NCBI GenBank assembly: GCA_902826815.1
Contig: CADEGF010000007.1
Span: 62,001 to 126,000, forward strand
Source: an uncultured Mycobacteriaceae bacterium
GTDB taxonomy: Bacteria > Actinomycetota > Actinomycetes > Mycobacteriales > Mycobacteriaceae
Length of the DNA: 64,000 bases
Reading direction: 5' to 3'
The translations under genes were made by a program, and so were the position numbers. Position 1 is the stretch's first letter. Every line of letters starts with the position of its first letter. The notes below the pieces were generated by a model, which was not told the origin of the DNA, ran no database searches, and saw nothing but the letters and a program-made list of their open reading frames with translations. Below are positions 26,862-40,316 of the stretch, one piece after another.

Positions 26862-28454
26862 TCACAACTGCAGCGTCCGGTCGACGCGGATGTTCTGCAG
26901 GAATCTGGCGTCGTGGCTGACGACGACGAACGCACCGCGGTAGGCGTTCAGCGCGGATTCGAGCTGCGCGATGCTGACGAGGTCGAGGTTGTTGGTCGGC
27001 TCGTCCAGCAGCAGCAGCTGCGGCGCCGGGTCGGCATACAGCACGCACGCGAGCGTGGCGCGCAGCCTTTCGCCGCCGGATAGCACGCTGACGGGCAGGT
27101 GAATCATGTTGCCCCGGAACAGGAACTGCGCCAGTAGATGCATCCGCCGCGTCTCGCTCAACGTCGGCGCATACGAGACCAGGTTCTCGAGCACCGTCCG
27201 GTCCTCGTCGAGCAGGTCGAGTCGCTGCGACAGGTAGGCGATCCGCCCGTCGACCCGCTGGATGTCTCCGTCATCCGGTTCGAGTTCGCCGGAGATGATC
27301 CGCAGCAGCGTCGTCTTCCCCGCGCCGTTAGGACCGACGTGCGCGATGCGTTCAGGTCCGCGGATGGTGATGTCGATACCGTCGCCGAATAGGGTCCGCC
27401 CGCCTCGGCATAACCGTATTCCGTTGCCCACGAACAGGTTACGGCCCGCGGGTACCTCGGTTTCCGGCAGGTCAAGCACGATCGACGGATCGTCGCGCAG
27501 CGCACGCTCAGCGTCGTCGAGGCGGGTCCTCGCATCGTCGACCCGCGCGGCGCTCACACCGTCGATGCGTCCGGCGGACTCCTGTGCCCTGCGCTTCATC
27601 GCGCCCGCGATGATCTTCGGCAGCCCGGCGTCCTTCACATTGCGCGCCGCGGTGCTCGACCGGCGCGCAGCGCGTTCACGGGCCTGTTGCATCTGCCGCT
27701 TCTCGCGTTTGACCTGTTGCTCTGCGTTGCGCACGGCGCTCTCGGCGAGGCGTTGGCCTTCGCGCACCGATTCCTCGTATGCGGTGAAATTGCCTCCGTA
27801 GAGGTTCATTTCGCCGCGGTGCAGTTCGGCGATGCGGTCCATCCGGTCGAGCAGCACGCGGTCATGGCTGACCAGTAGCAGTGCCCCCTTGTAGTCGTCG
27901 AGCGCGTTGTAGAGCTTGGCGCGCGCACCGGCGTCGAGGTTGTTGGTCGGCTCGTCGAGCAGCAGGACATCGGGCTGCTTGAGCAGTTCGGCGGCCAACC
28001 CGAGCGAGACCACCTCGCCTCCGCTCAGCGAGCCCAGCCTGCGATCGAGTGCAACGTGCGCGAGGCCGAGCCGGTCGAGCTGCGCGCGGGTGCGCTCCTC
28101 GATATCCCACTCGTCGCCGATTGCGGCGAACACCGCCTCGCCGGCGTCACCGGACGCCAGCGCGTCGAGCGCCTCGAGCACGGGTGCGACACCGAGCACG
28201 TCGGCCACAGCGCGCTCTGCATCGAACGGCAGCGTCTGCGGTAGATAGCCGAGTGAGCCGTCGACGGTCACCGATCCGGCCGACGGCCGGTAGGAACCGG
28301 TGATCAGCTTCAGCAGCGTGCTCTTGCCTGCGCCGTTGGGTGCGACCAGGCCGGTATGCCCGTCGCCCACGGCGAAGGACAACTCCTCGAACAGCGGGGA
28401 CTCCCCCGGCCACGAGAAGGACAGATTCGAACAGACGATGGCGGTTTCAGACAT
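26862..28454 (-). CDS. ABC-F family ATPase (ribosome-associated type, possible antibiotic-resistance factor)
   Basis: The 530-residue protein has two ABC domains and no transmembrane segments. Domain 1: Walker [10 protein letters not shown] (about 38-46), signature [10 protein letters not shown], Walker [12 protein letters not shown]. Between them lies a charged linker (about 215-290) with [19 protein letters not shown], and domain 2 has [18 protein letters not shown] and [15 protein letters not shown] proteins act on the ribosomal E site, either in translation control or in protection from antibiotics. It differs from mycobacterial EttA (Rv2477c), which begins quite differently. It is the first accessory gene of the block. 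Confidence 0.9.
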
Positions 28455-28598
28455 ATGCGGGCTCTCGTGATTGCACGGAAAATGGACGGCAGCATCGATC
28501 CGGGCTTCACCCGGAGATGGCGTCAGCTCACATGCCTCCAGAGTAGGCGCGACGTCAAGCAGATAAGTACCGCCGCAGCCTGCCCGCCGATGGTGCGG
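28455..28598 (-). promoter_or_regulatory. Leader region of the ABC-F gene (possible attenuator)
   Basis: Read toward the ABC-F gene, this region has GGAGG (28535-28539) followed by GTG-AGC-TGA, a possible three-codon leader starting at 28532. A short CCGGG/CCCGG hairpin follows (28500-28514). There is no strong ribosome site just before the ABC-F ATG. ABC-F resistance genes are often controlled by leader-peptide attenuation, but here the leader is only suggestive. Confidence 0.25.
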
Positions 28599-30065
28599 TC
28601 AGCTCGCAGGCGCACCCGCATCCGCGGGGGCCGGGTCGCTTTGGCCTGAGCCGCTCTGGCCGGCAGCCGAATCGCCATCGCCATGCGACGTCACGGCCTT
28701 GACCACAGCTTTGATCGACTTCCTCACCGTTGCCAGCAGCGATCCGTTCGGGCCGGCGATTCTCGGCTTCGACGGTGTCGACGAATTGCCACCAGGAGTC
28801 GCGAACAGCGGCGGCCTCAGCACGTTCAGCTTCGGGCCCGTTCCGTTCGAGTCGTTCACGGCGCCAGGCCCGGCATCGGCCGTCGGCGCAGGCGGCGTCG
28901 CCATCAACGCCTGACCATTGTCATTCTGGTCGACCTCGGCCCCCATGGTCGTCATCGCGAGCGGCTGCGCGTTCGTCGTCGGGCTCATCGTCACCGGTGG
29001 CCCACCGATCCCGTACGCATCCTGGCCCATCGTGCCGGGACCGATTTGTGGTCGCGCGGTGTTCAAGGGACGCCCGGCACCGACGTCCTGGAGCCCGTTG
29101 TCGAGCCCGGTCATGATCGCGACAGGAATGTTCTTGACGAAGGTGGCCGGGTCAGGGAAGTAACCGAAGTCGAACGTGGTTGGCTGGCCGGGACTGATGT
29201 TCCGGTTGTAGCCCGCCTCAACGAGGAGCCGGACAAGCGGGTCGAGCACATCGGCGGCGATCGGCCCGACGACCGGGATCATGTCGATCGGCATCAGCAG
29301 CGGAACCGGGTACGACGGGATCAGGTAGTACGCGGTGTCACCGTATTCGTCCTGCAGCACCGCACCGCTCGGGTTGTCGTAGTTGAGGTGAACGAACAAG
29401 GTACCCATTGCGGCGTTCGTCAGCGCGAACAGGTTGGTCGGGTTCGTCGGAGCGTCAGCAATCGGATCGTACTGGCCGGCATAGTCTTTCGTGGTGATCA
29501 CGCCATCTGCCGCGCCGCTGGTATTGGTGGGGGTCGCCGAGGTGAAGGTCATGTCGAGACCCGGTATGTACAGCCCTGCCATCCGCGACAGGATGCCGCC
29601 GTTGGGCCGGTCCCCGTTCCCGACGAACACGAACTCCGGAACGACGCCGGGCGTCGGATCGGCGTTGAACGCCTTCTTGTACTCGCTACCGACGACGGCG
29701 CCCTGCGAATATCCGAAAATCACCGGTGAAGGGTCACCTGCGGTGGCGAGCTGCAGGGCCGTCACGCCCTGCCGAACCGACTGATCCCAGGTGGGGTCCG
29801 AGAAGCCACCCGGCGACAGCGGGCGCCAAGAGGCCGGGTAGACGACGACGGTCGGCGGAGTGCCGACGGTCCCGACGCCGTACTGGATGGCCATCCCTTG
29901 GATCGCCGGATCGCTGGTGATGTTGAGGATGGGAATCTGGGTGCCTTTCAGGGCATGCGATCCCGTCAGTTGCACCGCCAGCGGCATATTGCCCGATAGC
30001 CCCATCAGGAGCGCGCAGAGAACGGCCAGCAGCGCTACACCGAGTGTTCGAATTGTCTTTCGCAT
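28599..30065 (-). CDS. Secreted PE-PPE-domain alpha/beta hydrolase
   Basis: The 488-residue protein begins with a signal peptide (MRKTIRTLGVALLAVLCALL) and carries a PE-PPE domain (about 45-290), a mycobacterial serine hydrolase/cutinase-like esterase fold, without PE or PPE N-terminal regions. The nucleophile is Ser120 in FGYSQGAVVG; NGDRPNGGI and LFVHLNYDNPSGAVL carry likely acidic and basic partners. The last 150 residues are low-complexity, Pro/Gly/Thr-rich. GGGGGAGGG lies about 5 nt before the ATG. A lipid or ester in the envelope is the probable substrate. Confidence 0.85.
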   Translation of the reverse strand: MRKTIRTLGVALLAVLCALLMGLSGNMPLAVQLTGSHALKGTQIPILNITSDPAIQGMAIQYGVGTVGTPPTVVVYPASWRPLSPGGFSDPTWDQSVRQGVTALQLATAGDPSPVIFGYSQGAVVGSEYKKAFNADPTPGVVPEFVFVGNGDRPNGGILSRMAGLYIPGLDMTFTSATPTNTSGAADGVITTKDYAGQYDPIADAPTNPTNLFALTNAAMGTLFVHLNYDNPSGAVLQDEYGDTAYYLIPSYPVPLLMPIDMIPVVGPIAADVLDPLVRLLVEAGYNRNISPGQPTTFDFGYFPDPATFVKNIPVAIMTGLDNGLQDVGAGRPLNTARPQIGPGTMGQDAYGIGGPPVTMSPTTNAQPLAMTTMGAEVDQNDNGQALMATPPAPTADAGPGAVNDSNGTGPKLNVLRPPLFATPGGNSSTPSKPRIAGPNGSLLATVRKSIKAVVKAVTSHGDGDSAAGQSGSGQSDPAPADAGAPAS

Positions 30066-30341
30066 AACACCCTCCCCCGGGCACGCACTGTCGTATAGCT
30101 ATGGTGCAACGTCACAACTCACTATGTAGCAAATTCGCCACATCGGGCGAAGAAGTCGCATGGCTTTGTCTTTCGGCGAACGTCTCGAACGCCGATACGC
30201 GATTCTCGCTAGATACAGGAACATCTTTCACCATCGAAGTAGGCACTGCTTTACCTCGCACTAGCCCGACACACTCAAGAAGTCAGCGCGTACAGCAAAC
30301 TACACCACAAACCGTTGGCTATCCCGAATTGAACTCGTTTC
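30066..30341. other. Intergenic region between dapD2 and the PE-PPE hydrolase gene
   Basis: This 276-bp region is noticeably richer in A and T than its surroundings. It lies downstream of the lux-dapD2 operon and upstream of the hydrolase gene, both on the minus strand. It presumably holds the operon's terminator and the hydrolase promoter. I see no credible ORF and no long hairpin. Confidence 0.5.
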
Positions 30342-31325
30342 TCAGTCGTTCGCCAGTAGTTCGGCGTTGATGTCGACGCCCTTGCCGGTCCACGGCCAGG
30401 CTTCGACCGCGCCGGTGACGGAGTTGCGGCGCAGGTGGAGATTGCTCATCCCGGCCACCGTGGCCGCAGCGACCGAAGAGCCGTCCGGCCGGAAGACCGC
30501 GGTATCCGCGGCGACGTGCAGCCCCGTCTCGACGACGCAGTCATCGCCGAGGGATATCTCGACTTCGGCGTTGGCCCCGACGAGGCAGCGCTTGCCGATG
30601 CAGATCGTGTGGCCACCGCTGCCGCCACCGACGTCAGAGCCGTCACCGACGACGACGCCTGCGGCAACCTGGCCTTCGATGATCGCGCCACCCAACGTGC
30701 CCGCGTCGTAATCAACGAAACCCTCTGGCATCACCGTGGTTCCCGGCGCCAGGTGGGCGCCGAGCTGTACGCGGGCGCCGTCGGCGATTCGCACGCCCGA
30801 CGGAATCACGTAGTCCACCATCCGTGGCAGCTTGCCGACGCCCTGGACCGTGAACGGCCCGAATGCGCGCATGCGCCGATGCACATTGGAAAAGTCATCG
30901 GCGGCGATCGGGCCGTGATTCGTCCATACCACGTCGGCGAGCAGTTCCTCGACGCCGTCGAGGTTGGCTTCGTGAGGTCGAACCATCCTGTGCGACAGCA
31001 GATGTAACCGAAGGTAGGCTTCGTACGCGTCGCACGGAGCCTTGGCGAGATCGGCGATCGTGGTGCGGACCGCAACCACACTGACCTCACTGACCGGGTT
31101 ACGGCCGATCAACGGCAACAACCGCTCAGGAATCGCGCCGGACGTCAGCATTTCGACCTCGGTGGTCGGGTAGTGACCCAGTTCCGGTTCTGGGTACCAC
31201 ACGTCCAGAACAGCACCGCTCGGGCTCAGCGACGCCAAACCCGTCGCTGAGGCCCCTTGGGAGAGCACCGCCTCCCCCGGTACGTCAGGTACCGGGTTCG
31301 GCGGTGCTTCTGTATCGATGCTCAT
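30342..31325 (-). CDS. DapD paralogue (hexapeptide-repeat N-acyltransferase) in the lux operon
   Basis: The 327-residue protein is a diverged copy of mycobacterial tetrahydrodipicolinate N-succinyltransferase. It keeps [44 protein letters not shown], Glu201 (PEGFVDYDAGTLG, the DapD catalytic position) and NSVTGAVE. Compared with the housekeeping DapD at 39372-40316, 9 residues are missing after DVGGG: 7 residues (SGGHTIC) replace a 16-residue stretch that includes [18 protein letters not shown] has become ANAEVEIS and the conserved MHEGFVN is MPEGFVD. The ATG at 31325 is 5 bp after the luxC stop. A changed acyl donor or acceptor is inferred. Confidence 0.85.
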   Translation of the reverse strand: MSIDTEAPPNPVPDVPGEAVLSQGASATGLASLSPSGAVLDVWYPEPELGHYPTTEVEMLTSGAIPERLLPLIGRNPVSEVSVVAVRTTIADLAKAPCDAYEAYLRLHLLSHRMVRPHEANLDGVEELLADVVWTNHGPIAADDFSNVHRRMRAFGPFTVQGVGKLPRMVDYVIPSGVRIADGARVQLGAHLAPGTTVMPEGFVDYDAGTLGGAIIEGQVAAGVVVGDGSDVGGGSGGHTICIGKRCLVGANAEVEISLGDDCVVETGLHVAADTAVFRPDGSSVAAATVAGMSNLHLRRNSVTGAVEAWPWTGKGVDINAELLAND

Positions 31326-31330
31326 CGCAC

Positions 31331-32887
31331 CTACTTGAGGTTCATTTCCTCGTACACCTTCCAGACCTCCATCGGGTCCGGGTTCTCGGTGTCGTCCCCG
31401 CGGCCGTAGAACAACCGGTCGTCCTCCTCCACGGGGATACCCCAGAACTTGTACTTGAAGGCGACACCGCGCTCGATGGTGACCCACCGGATCAAGCGCG
31501 CCAACGGGAACATGCCGTCGTGCGCGAAGCCCGGCCGAGGCCGTCCCGCCCGGCCCACCTCGGTGATGCGGGCGATGCCAAGGAACGCCAGTTCGTCCGC
31601 GAGTTCCATCGCACGCTCCGGCGGGTAGAGCGCGATCGTCTGAGTATGCTTGTCGACGAAGCCGTACGCCTCTTTCAGGTCCTTCACCGGATGAACGAAC
31701 ATGGTGCGGCTCAACGGATGTGCCGCAATCCTGCACGGCCCGTCGGTCACCACGATGGTCCAGCCCGTGCCGCCATCCTTGGGCGTGATGACGTCCCAGC
31801 CGCGGAACGCCGACTCACGGCGGGTCCTCGCCACGGCGGCCGCCTCGTCCGCAGGAACCGGCGGCTTCGGCATCCGCTTGAGGTTGGTGTCCAACCATCG
31901 ACCCAGCGCCTCGACGTACTCATTCGGGTCCGCTTCGCAGAACGTCTCCTGCGGGCTGAAGCAGGCGACCTGGTCGTAGATGCTGATGTCGTACGCCGCC
32001 TTCATCCCGACGTAGTCGAGATCGGCGCAGTCCTTACCGACCAGGTGCAGGCTGCGCTTCGGGCCGAACTCGACGAACTCGGTCCCGTAGCGGATGCGCC
32101 GCTTGATCGGTTCGATCGACGTCTCGTGACCCCACGCACACACCACATCGGACATATCCAGGATCTCGTCTTCGATCGTCGAGCCCGGATCCCAGTAGGC
32201 GACGGTCAACGACTTGGTGATCGGGTGGTCGGGCGCGACGGCGATGAAGCTCAGCGCGAACAGCAGGCTGGTGACGGCATCGCGCTTCGGCAGCTTGGCG
32301 ATCGTCATGTTCTTGGTCATCACGCTGCGCACGATGGAGAACAGGCCAGCCATCGGGATGTTGCCGACCATGATGTGGGTGCACTTCCCGCGTGGTTCGG
32401 CGTGTAGATACACCGTCTTTCGCGGCAGCCACTCGTCGAGCAGATAGGGGTCCCCGATCTCGCTCTCGAGCATGTCGTACACCTTGATGCGCCGCAGCGC
32501 CGTCGACAGCAGGCCGAGGTCGTAGTAGATGCTCGGACCGACGTATCCGGCTGTCTCGGCGATGGTCTCGGTCACCAACTGCCGAAATTCGTAGTCCTCG
32601 TCGATCCACCTCTTGCAGAGGTCGTTGAGGAAGATCGCGACGTCGTCGATCGACAGCGCGGCGATACCCCGATTGTCGGCCTCGCGGATACGCGCGACGT
32701 CGGCGGCATCCAGGCGCGGAATGCGAACCTCCATGCTGTCGCCGTAGCTCAGCGAGATCGTGTTCTCCGGAGTGGGCAGCTTCACCTCACCGCAGACCAC
32801 GATCGGCAGTTCCAGCACCTTCCCCGAGGGTTCGTCGCGGATCGTGAAACCTTCTTGAGTCACGGTCCGTTCGAGTTGATCTGTCAT
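31331..32887 (-). CDS. luxC: LuxC-type fatty acyl reductase subunit
   Basis: LuxC reduces the acyl group handed over by LuxE to a fatty aldehyde with NADPH, through an acyl-cysteine. The 518-residue protein shows the family landmarks: IMVGNIPMAGLFSIVRSVMT (172-191), HPITKSLTVAYW, the catalytic cysteine Cys309 in YDQVACFS, and FAHDGMFPLARLIRWVTIER (454-473). Family members are about 480 residues; the extra length is split between the N-terminus and a C-terminal tail of some 40 residues. It overlaps luxD by 4 bp and is followed after 5 bp by dapD2. No luciferase genes adjoin it. Confidence 0.92.
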   Translation of the reverse strand: MTDQLERTVTQEGFTIRDEPSGKVLELPIVVCGEVKLPTPENTISLSYGDSMEVRIPRLDAADVARIREADNRGIAALSIDDVAIFLNDLCKRWIDEDYEFRQLVTETIAETAGYVGPSIYYDLGLLSTALRRIKVYDMLESEIGDPYLLDEWLPRKTVYLHAEPRGKCTHIMVGNIPMAGLFSIVRSVMTKNMTIAKLPKRDAVTSLLFALSFIAVAPDHPITKSLTVAYWDPGSTIEDEILDMSDVVCAWGHETSIEPIKRRIRYGTEFVEFGPKRSLHLVGKDCADLDYVGMKAAYDISIYDQVACFSPQETFCEADPNEYVEALGRWLDTNLKRMPKPPVPADEAAAVARTRRESAFRGWDVITPKDGGTGWTIVVTDGPCRIAAHPLSRTMFVHPVKDLKEAYGFVDKHTQTIALYPPERAMELADELAFLGIARITEVGRAGRPRPGFAHDGMFPLARLIRWVTIERGVAFKYKFWGIPVEEDDRLFYGRGDDTENPDPMEVWKVYEEMNLK

Positions 32888-33792
32888 GAGTTTTCCTCCC
32901 GATCTAGCGTTTTCTCTTGACGGTTCTTCTCCACTACGTCGTTGAACGAAGGTGAGACCACCTGTTCGACGTCAATGTCCGCGCCGGTGAGTTCGCGCGC
33001 CACAGCAGCGGTGGCCACCGAGAACGCAGTTCGGGCGGCAACAGGGTTGTATTCGAGCTTGTGAGTCGCCTCGGGCAGGATGTACATCTGGCGCGGCGCC
33101 TGCTCGCAGTCCTCGCCGAAGACAGATTCCGCTTCGTCCAGATTGGTCCAGGCATCGTCTTCGGCGAACACGTGTGTGATCGGGAAACGGCACTGTGCGA
33201 CATCATGTTTCGTCGACTCGAGGGAATGCAGATTGTGCTCGATGGCGTCCATCACGATCTGGCCTCCCACGTGATAGCCGAGCACTTCACGTGCGTGCGG
33301 GACACTGCCCGACAGACCTTCGGCGACGACGTCCTCACCGACGACGGAGTTGAGCGTGTCCTGCAGGTTCACCACACCGACGAGGGACACCAGCGCTGCG
33401 ACGTCGGGCAGATCTCGCAGGGCCCGGAAGGCGATTCGCGCACCCATGCTGACGCTGATGACGCCCACGGGGCCGCGCACTCCCCAGTCGCCGAGGGCGG
33501 CGAACACGGAGCGCAGATCATCTGCGGCTGTGGACAGCTTGTAGTCGAAGACGTGGCCCTCGCTTGCCCCTACGTGGTCGGTGTAGTCGAAGCGCAGCGA
33601 CCGAAAGCCGTTGAGGGTCAAGAACAGCGACAGGGGACCAAAGTGGCGCATCGACAACGCGTAGCTGGGCGCGATGATCACGCACGGGGTCTCAGAATCC
33701 CCAGACGCGGGCACCTCAAGCAGGCCTCGAATCCTTTTGCCTGCGCTGTTGCGGGTCTCCAGAAGAGAGCCCAACTCGGTGAAGGCGGTCAT
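32884..33792 (-). CDS. luxD: LuxD-type acyl transferase (thioesterase)
   Basis: LuxD is the alpha/beta hydrolase that releases fatty acid from acyl-ACP or acyl-CoA for the reductase complex. The 302-residue protein has the expected length and landmarks: SYALSMRHFGPL, LRFDYTDHVGASEG (LuxD R-x-D-x-x-HVG-x-S), nucleophile Ser115 in SVSMGARIAF, LVGVVNLQDTL, acidic Asp212/Asp213 in FAEDDAWT and His244 in EATHKLEY. The tail SPSFNDVVEKNRQEK also mirrors Vibrio LuxD. Start and stop overlap luxE and luxC by 4 bp each, so all three are translationally coupled. Confidence 0.92.
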   Translation of the reverse strand: MTAFTELGSLLETRNSAGKRIRGLLEVPASGDSETPCVIIAPSYALSMRHFGPLSLFLTLNGFRSLRFDYTDHVGASEGHVFDYKLSTAADDLRSVFAALGDWGVRGPVGVISVSMGARIAFRALRDLPDVAALVSLVGVVNLQDTLNSVVGEDVVAEGLSGSVPHAREVLGYHVGGQIVMDAIEHNLHSLESTKHDVAQCRFPITHVFAEDDAWTNLDEAESVFGEDCEQAPRQMYILPEATHKLEYNPVAARTAFSVATAAVARELTGADIDVEQVVSPSFNDVVEKNRQEKTLDREENS

Positions 33793-34979
33793 GACTGTTC
33801 CTCCTCTGCGACTTCGGTTTCGCCGTCCATCGCGCGCGCACAGCCGCGCTCATCGGATGCGGTCACTCTTCGGGTGAAGCTCATCGTCGGCCCTCCTCGC
33901 CCGCACTCGCACGGGCCGTGGTCGACCACGCCGAAGTCATCGGAGATGACGAAACCCGGGTAGCCGGTGGGCAATGCGTCCCAGTACGCGAGGACTCCCA
34001 TCTCCCCGGCAGGCACCGGCTGCTGGGTTTCGGAGTCGAGCGCAGCAACGATCAGCCACGGCGGGATGTGCTTGTGCGCGGCCTCGCACTCGAACACCAC
34101 CGTGTTGAGTTCGACCATGTTGTAGGCGTCGCGCACAGAAGCCGAGTCCAGGCCGAGTTGGCCTGCACACCAGGCCCTGAAATCCGCGCTGTCGATCTCT
34201 TCGTCGGAGTGCGTCTTCCAACCGCCGCCGGTGACCAACAGGCCGCGGCGCGCGCCCAGATTCATCGTGATGCCCTGATCGGCGAGGTAGCGCAGCAGGT
34301 ATACGACGAAGATCGGCGGACCGACGATGATCGGCTGGATCTCTTCGTCCAACGCCGTCAGGTCGTCGGCCACCTTGCGTGGATCGAATACGCCGTCGAC
34401 GACGTAGTGCGTTGCCGGGCGCAGCAGGCTGATCAGGCTCATGACGTACGGGAACCAAACGTCTCCGGCATCGTCGGTGTCCGGTCCGAGGTTGAAGACG
34501 TGCGCTCTGACCCTCAGGTCGAGCAGCTGTTCCGCAGACAGCCGAATGGAGCCGACGAATCGTTCCAGGCTGGTGTTGTCGCGGCGGACCCTGCTGATGA
34601 CGCCCTGCGTGCCGCTACTCCGGCAGACCTTGGCGACGGCCTCGCCGGCGACGCTGCTGATCGCCTGTTCCTTGAACATCGATGCCGGGATCAGCGGCAC
34701 CCGGACGATGTCGTCTGGAAACGTCAGCGACTCGGGGTTGACTCCTTCGATAGCGCAGTAGCGCTGATACTGCTTGCAGTTCTCGTAGTGGTAGCGGAAG
34801 GCTTCGGTGAAGACCAGAGCCTGAAATATCCGCGTTCTGGCTTCGTCCCATTGATACGGATCGTCTTCGCCGTAGACGACGGTCTCGACTGCTGTTTGAG
34901 AACCGAGATAGGCACGTGGGCGCCTGATCCGCGAAGCTTGCGGAAGGTCGATCACAACGGATTCATCTACATATGTCAC
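33789..34979 (-). CDS. luxE: LuxE-type acyl-protein synthetase
   Basis: LuxE activates the free fatty acid with ATP and carries it on a C-terminal cysteine before transfer to LuxC. The 396-residue protein shows FTEAFRYHYENCKQYQRYC, VRVPLIPASMFKE, the adenylate-binding CRSSGTQG (119-126), LLVTGGGWKTH, and a C-terminal CECGRGG whose Cys357 and Cys359 are candidates for the acylated residue. The GTG at 34979 is preferred because GGGGAGG lies 6 nt upstream; the longer open frame to 35084 lacks family sequence. It is the first gene of the luxE-luxD-luxC-dapD2 operon. Confidence 0.9.
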   Translation of the reverse strand: MTYVDESVVIDLPQASRIRRPRAYLGSQTAVETVVYGEDDPYQWDEARTRIFQALVFTEAFRYHYENCKQYQRYCAIEGVNPESLTFPDDIVRVPLIPASMFKEQAISSVAGEAVAKVCRSSGTQGVISRVRRDNTSLERFVGSIRLSAEQLLDLRVRAHVFNLGPDTDDAGDVWFPYVMSLISLLRPATHYVVDGVFDPRKVADDLTALDEEIQPIIVGPPIFVVYLLRYLADQGITMNLGARRGLLVTGGGWKTHSDEEIDSADFRAWCAGQLGLDSASVRDAYNMVELNTVVFECEAAHKHIPPWLIVAALDSETQQPVPAGEMGVLAYWDALPTGYPGFVISDDFGVVDHGPCECGRGGPTMSFTRRVTASDERGCARAMDGETEVAEEEQS

Positions 34980-35263
34980 GCTCAGCCTCCCCATTAGCTG
35001 TGATCTTGATTTAGCGCACGATAAATAGAGCCCCACTAGGGACCTATTCATACTGACGCCTGTGTCAACTAGAGCTATCGGCACAGTACAACCTAGTATC
35101 GGTGTGCGTGGCGAAATCTACGGCAAAACTAATTGTGAATTAATTGGACGCCTGTGTATTACATCGATGGCGTTTGCTATGACAACGCGGTTTGTCTTAA
35201 TTTGCCTTAATTTTTCACCGGCTCGAGGGCCGGGAATTTTCTGTGAGTTTGCTGAGCGGACGC
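34980..35263 (-). promoter_or_regulatory. AT-rich upstream region of the luxE operon with repeated motif
   Basis: This 284-bp gap between the mmpL stop and luxE is distinctly A+T-rich for this genome and has no credible gene. The 11-mer GACGCCTGTGT occurs at 35055-35065 and again at 35147-35157, and GGACGCCT recurs at 35258-35265. On the minus strand a consensus -35 hexamer TTGACA (35063-35068) overlaps the first copy; the -10 is unclear. I infer the operon promoter here, with the repeat as a possible regulator site. Confidence 0.4.
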
Positions 35264-37420
35264 CTATTTTTCCGATACGGCAGCTGGCGACTCTAATGCG
35301 ACAGGTCCTGGGGTGGCGACGTCGGCATGACGATGCTGCGCGAACCTCGGCAGCCACCAATTGGCGGGACCCATCAGGGTAACCAGGGCGGGCACGAGAA
35401 GCATGCGCACAATCGACGCATCAAGGATGATCGCAAACGCCATTCCGATGCCAGCAATCTTCATCAAGGCAACCTGGGAGAGCCCGGCAGCGCCCGTGAC
35501 TATGACGAGCAGTGTGGCAGCGGCCGTGATCACGCGGCCCGTCGAGGCAAGTCCTTCTCGCACCGATTCGACGGTGTCAGCACCCTTTTGGTGCGCTTCC
35601 ACCATTCGGGCGACGAGAAACACCTCATAGTCGGTGGAGAGGCCGAAGATCACGGCGATCACCATCACGATCGCAGCCGCGGGAAGCGGGCGCGGGTCGA
35701 CGCCCAACATCTCGGCGCCATTGCCGTCGACGAAGATCCAGGTGAGCACTCCGAGGGTTGCGGTAAGGCTGAGGCCCGCCATGACAACGGCCTTGATCGG
35801 CAACACGATCGACCGGAACGCGATGAACATGAGCACCAGCGTCGCGGCAATCATAATCGCGAGCATGATCGGAAGCCCGTCGAGCACGGCGGTGTTGCTG
35901 TCGGCCCGCACAGCATTCTCGCCGCCGATGAGAACTGTCGTCCCCTGCGGCGGCGGGATGGCTCGCAAGGCGGCGATCGAGTCGCGTGCTTCGTTCGAGA
36001 AATCGTCGCTCGACAGCACCGCATGCAGGATCGTCATATCGTCGCCCGCGGCGAGCGGGTCCACCCGCGTGACGCCTTCGGCCGACTTCGCCTGGCCGGC
36101 GAACTCCGCGATGGACGCCTCCGCCGGAGGACCGTTCTCGCCCTTGATGACGACCGTCGCGCCGTTGTTCACCAGCGGGAAGTCCCTGGTGATCATCTCC
36201 TGGGTGGAGCGAACGGTATTGCTCTTCGGGAGGTCGTGAATGTCGAGGCCGCCAAAGGCGATATCGCGGATCGGCGAGCTGATCAGCGCCAGCCCGACAA
36301 CGATAGGCACAGCAACCAGCACCGGCCTGCGCGTCACCTTGGTGGCAAGCGCGGACCAGAACTTGTATGCGCGCGCCTCACCGCGCTGAGCGGCTCCGCG
36401 CCGCCACGGCAACGCATTGACGCGGTCGCCGAGGATCGTCAGCAGCGCGGGCACCGCCGCCAATGACAGGAACGCCGCGATGCCGACCGCCGCGATGGCG
36501 CCGAAGCCGACGGACCGAACCATGGACAACCGGAACACCGACATGCCGGCCAGCCCGACCGCCAGCAGCAGCGCTGAAAACAGCACGGTGCGTCCGGCTG
36601 TGGCGATCGTGCGCCGGGCGGCGGCGGCCGGTTCCAGGCCGTGCCTTAGTTCCTCCCGAAAGCGCGACACCGTCAACAAGCCGTAGTCGATGGCCATGCC
36701 GAGGCCGAGGATCGAGGCGGTGTTCAGCGCGAACGCACTCACATCGGTCACCATCGACAGCGCATGCAGCGCTCCCAGCGACCCGAAAACCGCCAAACCG
36801 CCCACACATACAGGGATCGACGCGGCTACGAACCCGCCGAAGATCACCACCAGAAGCGCGAGTGTCAGTGGCACTGCGATCGACTCGGCAATGGCCAGAT
36901 CGTGCTTGGACTCGGAGTTGTACGCGCCCGTCGTCGCACTCTGGCCGGAGAAATCGGTCTGCACGCCGGGCACCTGCAGTCCGGGACTGAGGTCGTTGAA
37001 CAGCTTCAACCGCTGGCTGTCGTCGCCCTTCAGGGTCAGGACGGCCAACGCCTTCCGGCGGTCAGGTGAGACGAGCCGCATTCGTTGTTGCGGCGCGGAT
37101 GTCCAATATGCGTCGATCGGCTTTGCCAACATCGACTTGTCAACTGCGTCGAGGCGTTCGGTGACTTGCGGGGTTATATCGTCGACCGTCTTTCCGACGG
37201 GTGCGGTGTACACGAGGACGATGTCGGGAGTTCGGCGGCCGAGGTGTTGGTCGACGAGTCGGTCGGCCTGCGCCGACTCGCTTGTCGGGTCTGCGTAGCC
37301 GGCGAGGTTGAGCCGGTCAAAGACGCCAAGCCCCCACAGTCCGGACGCCAACACCGCACCCACCGTCACGAGGACGACGAGCAGAGGCCTAGTTGTGACT
37401 AACCGCGCCCACCTGTCCAT
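35264..37420 (-). CDS. MMPL/RND-family lipid transporter
   Basis: The 718-residue protein is an MMPL-type proton-driven transporter, which in mycobacteria exports lipids to the envelope. It has an N-terminal helix, a large extracytoplasmic domain (about 35-165), five helices, a linker, a second helix, a second extracytoplasmic domain (about 390-505) and five more helices. The paired Asp-Tyr proton-relay motifs are present: GMAIDYGLLTVSRFREE and GLSTDYEVFLVARMVE. The C-terminal tail is short, unlike MmpL3. It follows the methyltransferase gene by 28 bp and precedes the luxE operon on the same strand. Confidence 0.9.
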   Translation of the reverse strand: MDRWARLVTTRPLLVVLVTVGAVLASGLWGLGVFDRLNLAGYADPTSESAQADRLVDQHLGRRTPDIVLVYTAPVGKTVDDITPQVTERLDAVDKSMLAKPIDAYWTSAPQQRMRLVSPDRRKALAVLTLKGDDSQRLKLFNDLSPGLQVPGVQTDFSGQSATTGAYNSESKHDLAIAESIAVPLTLALLVVIFGGFVAASIPVCVGGLAVFGSLGALHALSMVTDVSAFALNTASILGLGMAIDYGLLTVSRFREELRHGLEPAAAARRTIATAGRTVLFSALLLAVGLAGMSVFRLSMVRSVGFGAIAAVGIAAFLSLAAVPALLTILGDRVNALPWRRGAAQRGEARAYKFWSALATKVTRRPVLVAVPIVVGLALISSPIRDIAFGGLDIHDLPKSNTVRSTQEMITRDFPLVNNGATVVIKGENGPPAEASIAEFAGQAKSAEGVTRVDPLAAGDDMTILHAVLSSDDFSNEARDSIAALRAIPPPQGTTVLIGGENAVRADSNTAVLDGLPIMLAIMIAATLVLMFIAFRSIVLPIKAVVMAGLSLTATLGVLTWIFVDGNGAEMLGVDPRPLPAAAIVMVIAVIFGLSTDYEVFLVARMVEAHQKGADTVESVREGLASTGRVITAAATLLVIVTGAAGLSQVALMKIAGIGMAFAIILDASIVRMLLVPALVTLMGPANWWLPRFAQHRHADVATPGPVALESPAAVSEK

Positions 37421-37448
37421 AGTTCGACCCCTCCCGTGGTCATCCTGA

Positions 37449-38093
37449 TCACCGGCCGCACTCCCACACCTCGATGGTTCCGAACACCGATGGCACCCGC
37501 GCGACCGAACCCACGGAGGAGAAGGTGTCGCGCATTGCGGCCTCGAAACTGCCGTCGTGGTTGGACTGCTTGCCGCCGACGGGATCCGACAACGCCGACA
37601 GCTTGGACAGGATCACCTGACCGGGTCCGTGATGATGGCCGGTGAAGTCCGCAATCACGAACTTGCCGTCCTCGGCGAGCAGGCCATGGATCCGAGCGAA
37701 CACCTCTTGTTTGGCCTCGAGGTTCAGATGATGCAGGACGAGCGTGCTGTAGACCCTGTCGTAGATGCCCTCCAGCGGGCACGTGACGAAGTCGCCAAGC
37801 ACGAAGTCGATATCGACCCCGGCCTGCCCGGCGCGGTTCTTCGCGACCTTCATGATGTCGCGGTTGCCGTCCACCGCGGTGATCGCCACCTTCGGGTGCT
37901 CGCTCTTGATCTTGATTGCGAGACGCCCTGATCCGCAACCGAGTTCGAGCAGTCGTTGTCCGGGCTCCAACTCGAGAGCGTCGACGACGACGTCGCGCAT
38001 CTTGTTGCCCGCAGGCCAGCGCGCGGTCAGAGGATCGTAAGCGCCTGTGAACCACGACGGCCCCAGCGGTTGGATGATGGAATTTTTCGCCAT
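37449..38093 (-). CDS. Class I SAM-dependent methyltransferase
   Basis: The 214-residue protein has the SAM-binding motif RLLELGCGSGRLAIKI (about 48-63), an acidic residue at the end of strand 2 (TAVDGN), the FVLGDFVTCP segment, and a YDRVYSTLVLHHL stretch typical of small-molecule methyltransferases. It has no membrane segment. Substrate unknown. It is immediately upstream of mmpL and probably co-transcribed; together they adjoin the lux operon. Its product could be modified before export, but the link is inferred only from position. Confidence 0.85.
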   Translation of the reverse strand: MAKNSIIQPLGPSWFTGAYDPLTARWPAGNKMRDVVVDALELEPGQRLLELGCGSGRLAIKIKSEHPKVAITAVDGNRDIMKVAKNRAGQAGVDIDFVLGDFVTCPLEGIYDRVYSTLVLHHLNLEAKQEVFARIHGLLAEDGKFVIADFTGHHHGPGQVILSKLSALSDPVGGKQSNHDGSFEAAMRDTFSSVGSVARVPSVFGTIEVWECGR

Positions 38094-38278
38094 AGGAATC
38101 GCCTACCCCTGTTTGCGCCGAATGCCGTCGAAGGACGGCGCGCCTGACTGCAAGCTAACACCGGTATCGCAGATCGGGGGCTGATTCTCGCGAGAAATTT
38201 ACCTAACGGCAAATTCAAGTGACCGCGACCATCCAGGTGTCTCACAGCCGAAAACCGTTGCTGTGGCTAATGCTGGCG
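38094..38278 (-). promoter_or_regulatory. Upstream region of the methyltransferase-mmpL pair with a 12-bp palindrome
   Basis: The perfect palindrome TTCTCGCGAGAA lies at 38185-38196. On the minus strand TTGCCG and GAGAAT, 17 bp apart, could be -35 and -10 elements, and the palindrome overlaps the -10. A small perfect hairpin (GCCGTC, 4-nt loop, GACGGC; 38124-38139) follows in the leader. These suggest a repressible promoter, but no regulator gene adjoins it. Confidence 0.35.
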
Positions 38279-39346
38279 TCAAGCGGTCAAGTAGCGCCGC
38301 AACATGTCCGTCGCCGCGGTGATCTGCGCGACCTCAACCCGCTCATCGACACGGTGCGCAAGGTTCGGGTCACCGGGGCCGAAGTTGACGGCAGGCACGC
38401 CAAGCGCCGCGAATCGCGCCACGTCCGTCCAGCCGTATTTGGCGCGCACCTGCCCGCCCGCGGCCTCGACCAGCGCAGCGGCGGCGGGTTTCGTGAGCCC
38501 CGGAAGCGCGCCAGCGGCGGCGTCGGTCTGCTCGATCTGCACATCGAGACCGTCGAGGACTTCGCGCATGTGTTGGCCCGCCTGTTCGACGCTTCGGTCG
38601 GGCGCGAAGCGGAAGTTGACGGTGACCGACGCGGCGTCGGGAATGACGTTGCCTGCCACCCCGCCGTCGATACGCACCGCCGACAGACCCTCGCGGTAGA
38701 CACAGCCGTCGATGTCGACGCTGCGCGCCCGGTAGGCGGTCAGCCGATCGAGCACAGCACCGAGTTTGTGAATCGCGTTGTCGCCCAACCACGACCGCGC
38801 CGAGTGCGCGCGGGTGCCGGCTGCGCTGACGACGACGCGCAGCGTGCCCTGACAGCCCGCCTCGATGAATCCGCCAGACGGTTCACCGAGTATCGCGACA
38901 TCGGCGTGCAGCCACTCCGGCAACTCGCGCTCGATGCGGCCCAAACTGTTCGCGGAAGCCTCGATTTCCTCGCAGTCGTACATGACCAACGTGATGTCGT
39001 GGGCCGGGTCACCGACGGTGGCCGCCAGGTGCAGGAACACCGCGTCGCCCGACTTCATGTCCGAGGTACCGCAGCCGTGCAGTTCGCCGCCGCTGCGGCG
39101 GCTCGGCACGTTGTCGGCGATGGGGACGGTGTCGAGGTGTCCGGCCAGGATCACCCGCGACGGCAGGCCGCGGTCCGTGCGGGCGAGCACGGTATTGCCG
39201 GTGCGGACGATCTCGAACCCCGTGGTCTGTTCGCGAAGCGCGGCCTCGACCTCGTCGGCGATGCGCCGCTCGTCGCGCGACTCGCTGGGGATGTCCACCA
39301 GCGCCGCGGTAAGCCCTATCGGGTCGCCATGCAAGTCCAGGCCCAC
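38279..39346 (-). CDS. dapE: Succinyl-diaminopimelate desuccinylase
   Basis: DapE removes succinate from N-succinyl-LL-2,6-diaminopimelate in lysine and peptidoglycan synthesis. The 355-residue M20 metallopeptidase has [15 protein letters not shown] (first metal His, Asp), [14 protein letters not shown] (bridging Asp), MYDCEEIEA (Glu pair), EPSGG, and a C-terminal His in [10 protein letters not shown]. The GTG at 39346 matches the homologue's length; TAGCCT ends 8 nt upstream, consistent with a leaderless message. It corresponds to Rv1202 and is divergent from dapD. Confidence 0.93.
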
Positions 39347-39354
39347 ACCCGTTG

Positions 39355-39364
39355 AGGCTAGTCT
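39355..39364. promoter_or_regulatory. Overlapping divergent -10 elements of dapE and dapD
   Basis: TAGTCT (39359-39364, plus strand) ends 7 nt before the dapD GTG. TAGCCT (39355-39360, minus strand) ends 8 nt before the dapE GTG. The starts are only 25 bp apart, so both transcripts are probably leaderless and their promoters overlap. Confidence 0.45.
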
Positions 39365-39371
39365 TAGCGTC

Positions 39372-40316
39372 GTGACCTCAGCTTCAGGTATCGGCTTAGC
39401 GACGATTGCCGCGGACGGATCCGTGCTGGACACGTGGTTTCCCGAGCCGCAGCTGAGCGGGGAAGGCGCGTCGGGAACGGTGCGGCTGTCGGCTGCCGAG
39501 ATCCCCGATGAGCTGACCAGCATGATCCGCCGAGACGAGGACCGCGGCACCGAGACGGTCGCGGTGCGCACGGTCATCGAGTCACTCGACGACCAGGCTG
39601 TCGACGCCCACGACGCCTACCTGCGACTGCACCTACTGTCACACCGCCTCGTGCGCCCACACGGGTTGAATGCGGACGGCTTCTTCGGCGTGCTCGCCAA
39701 CGTGGTGTGGACGAATTACGGTCCCTGCGCCGTGGCGGGCTTCGAGATAGTTCGGGCCAAGCTTCGGTCCCGCGGTCCGGTCAACGTCTACGGCGTCGAC
39801 AAGTTCCCCCGCATGGTCGACTACGTGATACCGGCAGGCGTGCGGGTCGCCGACGCCGACCGGGTTCGGCTGGGAGCACACCTTGCCGACGGCACAACGG
39901 TCATGCACGAGGGCTTCGTCAACTACAACGCGGGCACACTCGGAAAGTCGATGATCGAGGGGCGGATCTCCGCGGGTGTGGTGGTCGGCGACGGCAGCGA
40001 CGTGGGCGGCGGCGCCTCCATCATGGGCACCCTCTCAGGCGGCGGCAAAGAGGTGATTTCAATCGGCCAGCGCTGCCTGCTCGGTGCGAATTCCGGGCTC
40101 GGCATATCCCTCGGTAACGACTGCGTAGTCGAAGCCGGCCTCTATATAACAGCGGGCACAAAGGTCACGTTGCCCGATGGTGCGGCCGTCAAGGCAGCAG
40201 ACCTGTCCGGCGCCGACAATCTGCTGTTCCGTCGTAACTCCGTTTCCGGCGCCGTCGAGGTGGTCGCGCGGGACGGCACCGGCATCTCGCTCAACGAGGC
40301 GCTGCACGCCAACTGA
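39372..40316 (+). CDS. dapD: 2,3,4,5-tetrahydropyridine-2,6-dicarboxylate N-succinyltransferase
   Basis: DapD succinylates tetrahydrodipicolinate in lysine/diaminopimelate synthesis. The 314-residue trimeric left-handed beta-helix enzyme is nearly the M. tuberculosis sequence throughout: [35 protein letters not shown] (catalytic Glu), [16 protein letters not shown], and [16 protein letters not shown]. It is the complete housekeeping copy and the reference against which the lux-operon paralogue is judged. GTG start, no ribosome site. It is adjacent to the sdaA stop with no gap, convergent. Confidence 0.94.

Follow-up and report, generated by a model that had tools for sequence, protein, structure and literature searches.

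A luxEDC fatty acid reductase operon in an inserted mycobacterial island, with a possible role in making a non-luminous lipid

We analysed a stretch of 64,000 nucleotides, hereafter the window, from the genome of an uncultured Mycobacteriaceae bacterium (assembly GCA_902826815.1, contig CADEGF010000007.1, positions 62,001 to 126,000). The window carries a complete set of genes for the Lux-type fatty acid reductase, luxE, luxD and luxC, followed by a diverged paralogue of the lysine biosynthesis gene dapD, which we term dapD2. We observed that these four genes belong to an inserted block of 9.8 kb at the dapE 3′ end, which reads in order: methyltransferase, MmpL3-like exporter, luxE, luxD, luxC, dapD2 and a PE-PPE-domain protein; an earlier reading of the window, made from the sequence only, had not described this block. 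We hypothesize, with a probability of roughly 0.55, that the Lux-type fatty acid reductase of the island has been reused without a luciferase, and that the aldehyde it produces feeds an exported, non-luminous lipid.

Results

The Lux subunits retain their catalytic residues

The sequence-only reading had placed luxE-luxD-luxC and a DapD-like gene at 30342..34979 on the minus strand, and the coordinates, the Pfam and NCBIfam matches and the solved relatives all agree with it; the 4-bp overlaps that it gave for the luxE/luxD and luxD/luxC junctions, and the 5-bp gap between luxC and dapD2, follow from the coordinates. The closest solved relatives are genuine lux proteins, namely Vibrio harveyi LuxD (1tht) and the Photobacterium phosphoreum LuxC-LuxE complex (7xc6). 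The NCBIfam lux equivalog models are the first matches for the Lux proteins, yet the scores lie under their cut-offs. Identity to the proteins of lux set L183, an Escherichia coli K-12 plasmid carrying a lux construct that we take to be a Photorhabdus-type reference although its record does not say so, is 29-36%. This level of identity, a G+C content of 62-64% and the conserved chromosomal flanks rule out contamination by a reporter construct.

We aligned the Lux proteins of the window with those of L183, Frankia, Micromonospora, Spongiibacter, a Clostridia metagenome-assembled genome (MAG) and, for LuxC and LuxE, Cellulomonas. All three genes are intact, and both the known acylation cysteines, one in LuxE and one in LuxC, and the Ser, Asp and His of LuxD are kept. 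The cysteine in YDQVACFS, the LuxC landmark of that reading, is invariant in all seven aligned LuxC proteins and equivalent to P. phosphoreum Cys286, which the available part of PMC8301110 gives as the acylated residue. For LuxE that reading had chosen a different landmark, CECG, and here it has to be corrected. The C-terminal cysteine in ERGCARAMDG (the GCA motif) and the SSGT motif are both invariant (7/7 LuxE proteins), and this cysteine matches P. phosphoreum Cys364, the acyl-transfer residue according to the same part of PMC8301110. CECG does not contain the acylated cysteine, and the region around it is absent from the LuxE of L183. In LuxD, Ser115, Asp213 and His244 are invariant (6/6 proteins) and correspond in the alignment to V. 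harveyi Ser114, Asp211 and His241, which we take to be its catalytic triad.

The genome contains luciferase-family proteins, none close to LuxA

That no luciferase lies by the operon had already been noted, and a genome-wide check for luxA, which the sequence-only reading proposed, found no LuxA-like gene: there are 58 matches to the luciferase family PF00296 in the genome, none of them close to LuxA, and none among the seven island proteins. With a LuxA-like protein of Spongiibacter as query, the best of 43 matches in the genome reached 71.5 bits, at 29% identity over half the length, whereas the same protein, as a control, reached 264 bits with V. harveyi LuxA and 287 bits with 8cbb; the comparison of 71.5 with 264 bits is a rough one between different program runs, and a LuxB query was not run separately. 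Nor does the genome contain a second lux gene set, for we found a single LuxE match, and of the LuxC matches one was strong and three were weak (21-26 bits).

Two of the four other genomes in which we found luxEDC (described below), those of Frankia and Spongiibacter, do contain a LuxA-like gene. In Frankia it lies upstream of luxE, is 38% identical over 216 residues and is interrupted by an assembly gap. The luxEDC module occurs both with and without a LuxA-like gene.

LuxC belongs with the lux proteins, and full luxEDC sets are rare

LuxC matches were present in 65 of 396 genomes of the genus, the window's own included, the best of the others scoring 162 bits at 35% identity; P. phosphoreum LuxC scores 230 bits, a figure obtained with a different program and only roughly comparable. 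Visualizing the relationships as a tree of 70 rows, we observed that the LuxC of the window groups with those of Photobacterium, L183, Spongiibacter, Frankia, Micromonospora, Cellulomonas and the Clostridia MAG (support 99/97), while 49 survey rows from the genus and class, which include a few duplicates, form a separate clade (100/100). Because the tree program gave a warning about misleading long branches, we dropped the nearest row, that of the Clostridia MAG (L092, 40% identical), and rebuilt the tree; the lux group then had support of 100/97 and appeared in 99% of 200 bootstrap trees, the window row being a long branch (1.37). Both trees rule out that this is an ordinary mycobacterial LuxC. 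In other mycobacteria (L088, L090 and L091) we noted a LuxC with an adjacent LuxE-like gene and no LuxD match, the LuxC belonging to the separate, commoner family.

LuxD is the most telling subunit for rarity. In the order, it found matches in 18 of 298 genomes at E 0.001, its own included, the best other reaching 30.9 bits (E 1.1e-7) in a match to part of the protein. None of the 64 other LuxC-bearing genomes of the genus gave a match, in a search whose Frankia control was positive. A six-row LuxD profile matched 13 of 396 genomes of the phylum at E 1e-8, again with its own among them; the other 395 scored at most 45.5 bits, the best over part of the model. Among plasmids, the LuxD search returned one record, that of L183; five pattern-matching stretches in viral contigs proved not to be relatives.

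A scan for LuxE that covered 84,980 species, each represented by one genome, returned 61 loci, 11 with LuxC nearby and four with LuxD nearby. The scan is not a census, since it used two short patterns and its list lacks Vibrio and Photobacterium. Full luxEDC sets were found in the Clostridia MAG SKW182, Micromonospora trifolii, Spongiibacter thalassae and Candidatus Frankia meridionalis. On two Cellulomonas contigs (4.2 and 3.2 kb), luxC and luxE are present without a LuxD match, these contigs being too short to judge. In Mycobacterium simulans (L135), a LuxE (31%) and a PE-PPE gene lie 4 kb apart with no LuxC or LuxD match, which we took as chance.

The four other luxEDC loci have biosynthetic neighbours (nonribosomal peptide synthetase (NRPS), glycosyltransferase, aminotransferase or MMPL genes), and one of them has an MMPL exporter. 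These neighbourhoods are consistent with a use of LuxEDC in biosynthesis unrelated to light, but they differ among themselves and from the island. In the Clostridia MAG (L092, 832-20164), luxEDC lies by an NRPS with condensation, adenylation, methyltransferase and carrier domains, together with homocysteine S-methyltransferase and B12 radical-SAM (S-adenosylmethionine) genes. One stretch of S. thalassae (L108, 1361-15930) encodes a LuxA-like protein, luxC, luxE-luxD and an MMPL/RND exporter, as well as cysteinyl-tRNA-synthetase-like, JmjC and class V aminotransferase proteins. In Candidatus Frankia meridionalis (L138, 8386-13570, equal to L083, 6853-12037) the LuxA-like gene is directly upstream of luxE-luxD-luxC, and the neighbours are glycosyltransferase, FkbM methyltransferase and epimerase genes. 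At a second Frankia locus (L084, 9139-15077), the 5′ part of a luxE breaks off and is followed by genes for GNAT and DUF3050 proteins, an MMPL exporter that shares 34% identity with the MmpL3-like exporter of the window, and an integrase-core protein.

DapD2 has lost residues that bind the substrates of DapD

DapD2 is 55% identical to DapD1, the genuine DapD of the same genome, and 57.6% identical to Mycobacterium tuberculosis DapD (3fsx), to which DapD1 is 79.6% identical. This last value, together with the gene content, marks the host as a mycobacterium. DapD matches are found in 294 of 297 genomes of the genus, and two matches in three of them: its own, G055, where they are adjacent pieces of one DapD, and G008 (70% complete), where they are pieces on two contigs. 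The window's genome is therefore the only one with a second full copy, none of the 296 others having one. In a DapD tree that included L001 and L005, which are DapD2's own copies, DapD2 falls among the DapDs of the genus with weak support (85/76) and on a branch of 1.63.

In Pseudomonas aeruginosa DapD, according to the available part of PMC3281039, Glu221 is catalytic, Arg223 and Ser241 bind succinate, Asn209 binds the acceptor, and Arg181 and Arg193 are said to bind the distal carboxylate of the acceptor. Glu221 is kept in DapD2 (Glu217), Arg223 has become Gln219 and Ser241 falls within a 9-residue deletion; on the acceptor side, Asn209 is replaced by Asp205 and Asp168 by Gly164. The numbers Arg181 and Arg193 fall on glycine in 3r5a under the offset that fits the other residues, so that the mapping is uncertain; of the arginine positions near them, two are kept (Arg179 and Arg185) and one is Gln187 in DapD2. 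The protein, whose gene is open over 327 codons, retains 86 of the 122 columns that are invariant in 21 DapD1 proteins, and has the region of hexapeptide repeats found in M. tuberculosis DapD.

Having lost residues that contact the succinyl carboxylate and the amino-acid acceptor, DapD2 is probably not a succinyltransferase of the lysine pathway, and is probably an acyltransferase with other substrates. Such changes are expected for an altered acyl donor and acceptor, or for lost activity; we favour the former, as dapD2 has an uninterrupted frame and follows closely on luxC. The sequence-only reading proposed acyl transfer by the DapD-like protein, which is possible, but not transfer of the DapD kind, given the loss of the succinyl-binding Arg and Ser and the acceptor-binding Asn.

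The exporter, the methyltransferase and the PE-PPE protein

The exporter is nearest to MmpL3, scoring 450 bits against 7nvh. Its score of 544.9 bits with the MmpL3 equivalog model, whose cut-off is 1400, marks it as a paralogue and not MmpL3. The MMPL domains are present, and AIDYGL and STDYEV align with the Asp-Tyr pairs that form the proton relay of MmpL3. Both this exporter and the PE-PPE protein look intact, judging from their sequences. The genome has 25 MMPL matches, the query included, the best other being 39% identical, and the stretches examined around the three nearest other copies contain no lux, DapD or PE-PPE relatives. An MmpL3-like protein is a lipid exporter of mycobacterial type, and the remark of the sequence-only reading that the transporter next door would suit a lipid product holds good. 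The PE-PPE domain is also carried by the M. tuberculosis acyltransferase Chp2 (Rv1184c), and Rv1184c is reportedly mentioned in a paper on this domain, PMC3037379. The seven island proteins gave no match to NRPS, polyketide synthase (PKS) or aminotransferase families, and the island likewise has no PapA gene.

The island was inserted at dapE

The island has a G+C content of 63.2%, against 66.7% and 66.2% in its flanks. At 18 dapE loci of the genus, the gene that follows dapE is the ABC gene in five and an AAA/TPR gene in ten; in the remaining three no downstream gene of the window was seen, one of these being a contig that ends near dapE. No island gene lies beside dapE at any of the 18 loci, within the stretch of up to 1.5 kb examined. 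At the left edge of the island a relict of the dapE 3′ end survives together with old spacer, whose identity to three relatives is 65-71% over 87-224 bp. This edge is most simply read as the result of an entry at the dapE 3′ end, the island having brought a second dapE tail with it. Given the relict, a donor carrying the island at dapE may exist. We found no tRNA gene in 20000-50000, and repeats of at least 16 bp in 27900-38600 are short imperfect pairs, none of which flanks the island. We consider the locus best read as a transferred, re-assembled lipid locus, and the unit probably to be larger than luxEDC and dapD2, extending to the seven genes of 28455-38278.

Table 1. Features of the island and its flanks (window positions)
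Feature	Positions	Strand	Evidence and remarks
luxE	33789-34979	minus	Pfam LuxE 229 bits; 7xc6_E 3.1e-65; acyl-protein synthetase, C-terminal GCA motif
luxD	32884-33792	minus	Pfam Acyl_transf_2 122 bits; 1tht 5.5e-32; acyl transferase/thioesterase acting on acyl-ACP (acyl carrier protein)
luxC	31331-32887	minus	Pfam LuxC 279 bits; 7xc6_A 4e-67; fatty acyl reductase, acylation Cys in YDQVACFS
dapD2	30342-31325	minus	diverged tetrahydrodipicolinate N-succinyltransferase paralogue; NCBIfam DapD_actino 365.5 bits (cut-off 441.5)
MmpL3-like RND lipid exporter	35264-37420	minus	718 residues; Asp-Tyr pairs AIDYGL and STDYEV both kept
Class I SAM-dependent methyltransferase	37449-38093	minus	Pfam Methyltransf_25 2.1e-16; 28 bp upstream of the MmpL3-like gene
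PE-PPE-domain serine hydrolase/acyltransferase	28599-30065	minus	Pfam PE-PPE 1.5e-46; N-terminal hydrophobic segment, GYSQG
Inserted island	28455-38278	seven genes, all minus	between dapE and the ABC-ATPase gene; old spacer stretch at left edge
Relict dapE 3′ end (LRRYLSA-stop)	28555-28578	minus	within the old dapE-ABC spacer; left insertion scar
dapE	38279-39577	minus	conserved flank
dapD1, genuine DapD	39372-40316	plus	TIGR03535 527.7 bits, above cut-off (in longer reading frame 38865-40316); conserved flank
ABC-type ATPase gene	26862-28454	minus	conserved flank

Discussion

For the Lux family, the available part of PMC8301110 describes LuxD as yielding the free acid, LuxE as forming acyl-AMP and then acyl-cysteine, and LuxC as accepting the acyl group and reducing it with NADPH. 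From family membership and the kept catalytic residues, we propose that the LuxD of the island would free a fatty acid from acyl-ACP, that LuxE would activate it as acyl-AMP and keep it bound to its C-terminal cysteine, and that LuxC would accept it on its own cysteine and reduce it to a long-chain aldehyde. The aldehyde may then enter a non-luminous lipid pathway with DapD2, the methyltransferase and the MmpL3-like exporter, and the PE-PPE acyltransferase/hydrolase, probably located outside the membrane, could remodel the exported product; the order of the steps after the aldehyde, and the product itself, are conjectural. More tentatively, and with odds somewhat against so specific a version, the product would be a new envelope lipid made from the LuxEDC aldehyde, with a new DapD-derived acyltransferase family, dedicated MmpL3-like export and PE-PPE finishing outside. 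If the hypothesis is correct, the Lux reductase, textbook chemistry of light, is a portable aldehyde-making module, and enzymes that make the fuel for light have been turned to lipid building in a genus specialised in lipids. The locus would then give concrete access to a new class of lipid, and serve as a test case of how an essential lysine enzyme was copied and re-tooled. As the same three genes occur in four other bacteria from three phyla, a role of LuxEDC outside light becomes testable.

Several observations weigh against a shared lipid pathway. The evidence for it comes from one locus in one genome, and the comparison groups were sampled. The sequence-only reading had looked to conserved linkage of luxEDC with the dapD paralogue; in the samples searched no second genome has luxEDC with this paralogue, the exporter or the PE-PPE gene, and the four other luxEDC loci have no DapD relative at E 1e-4 within the DNA examined, so that the pathway inference rests on one locus. 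The luxE-D-C-dapD2 unit is separated by 284 bp from the methyltransferase-MMPL pair and by 276 bp from the PE-PPE gene, and with such gaps between packed groups the seven genes need not form one unit; the search for sigma-70-type promoters found one, against 1.3 in shuffles, and none is conspicuous. Moreover, with the closest LuxC at 40% identity, the chain length and even the type of substrate are uncertain. Overall, we regard the interpretation given by the sequence-only reading as partly supported.

The same gaps, the very long branch of dapD2 and the lack of conserved linkage elsewhere would suit another explanation, namely that luxEDC is an orphan supply of aldehyde or alcohol for ordinary host enzymes, for example for wax ester synthesis, while its neighbours are passengers and dapD2 is decaying. 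We consider this unlikely, although it is the strongest competitor: dapD2 is open, starts 5 bp after luxC and keeps the catalytic Glu and most invariant columns, and all seven genes lie on one strand within one insertion. Less probable still is that the aldehyde goes not into a lipid of the envelope but into a diffusible secondary metabolite, a possibility raised by the gene neighbours in Frankia, Micromonospora and the Clostridia MAG; other luxEDC loci do have NRPS, glycosyltransferase, PhzF-like, dehydroquinate synthase or aminotransferase genes, but the island encodes no NRPS, PKS or aminotransferase, and its exporter and PE-PPE protein are of types tied to mycobacterial envelope lipids.

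We give little credence to a defence against reactive oxygen and nitrogen species, as proposed for the mel2 locus of Mycobacterium marinum (PMC1793995). That locus is a described mycobacterial case with lux-like genes; however, in the available part of the source it has the LuxA-like MelF and no clear LuxE, while the island encodes both LuxE and LuxD but lacks a monooxygenase, and the LuxD of the window lacks a match in all 64 other LuxC-bearing genomes of the genus. True bioluminescence, with a luciferase elsewhere in the genome, is already largely refuted and we regard it as the least probable of all: there are PF00296 matches in number, but none near LuxA when set against the control, and no second lux gene set. 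The reuse of the Lux reductase for a non-luminous lipid is the reading we prefer.

Comparison with known systems

The island resembles LuxCDE of luminous bacteria (Vibrio, Photobacterium, Photorhabdus) in having all three subunits, their catalytic residues and a LuxC of the same clade; it differs in its order E-D-C, in that no LuxA-like gene was found, in the MmpL3-like exporter alongside and in its mycobacterial host. The order luxE-luxD-luxC in an actinobacterium is shared with Candidatus Frankia meridionalis and Micromonospora trifolii (L094). Frankia has the upstream LuxA-like gene, whereas Micromonospora has none within the 21 kb examined and the island has none; unlike in the island, the neighbours in both are glycosyltransferase, methyltransferase or aminocyclitol-like genes, with no DapD relative.

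Among the matches listed in a search of the open-access literature, and as far as the available texts go, mel2 is the sole relevant case of lux reductase genes outside luminescence. Mel2 (melF-melK) likewise lies in a mycobacterium and encodes LuxC- and LuxD-like proteins; it differs from the island in MelF and in the lack of a clear LuxE, and DapD, MmpL and PE-PPE genes go unmentioned in the available part of its description (PMC1793995). DapD2 shares with M. tuberculosis DapD the overall sequence, the catalytic Glu and the hexapeptide-repeat region, and differs from it in the lost succinate ligands Arg and Ser, the changed acceptor residues Asn and Asp, and the missing 9-residue loop. An MmpL exporter is known to be paired with a periplasmic acyltransferase at the acyltrehalose locus of M. 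tuberculosis, where, according to the available part of PMC4183827, MmpL10 and Chp2 make and export penta-acyltrehaloses. In the island, by comparison, the exporter is MmpL3-like, there is no PKS or PapA gene, and the fatty acyl chain is presumably reduced instead.

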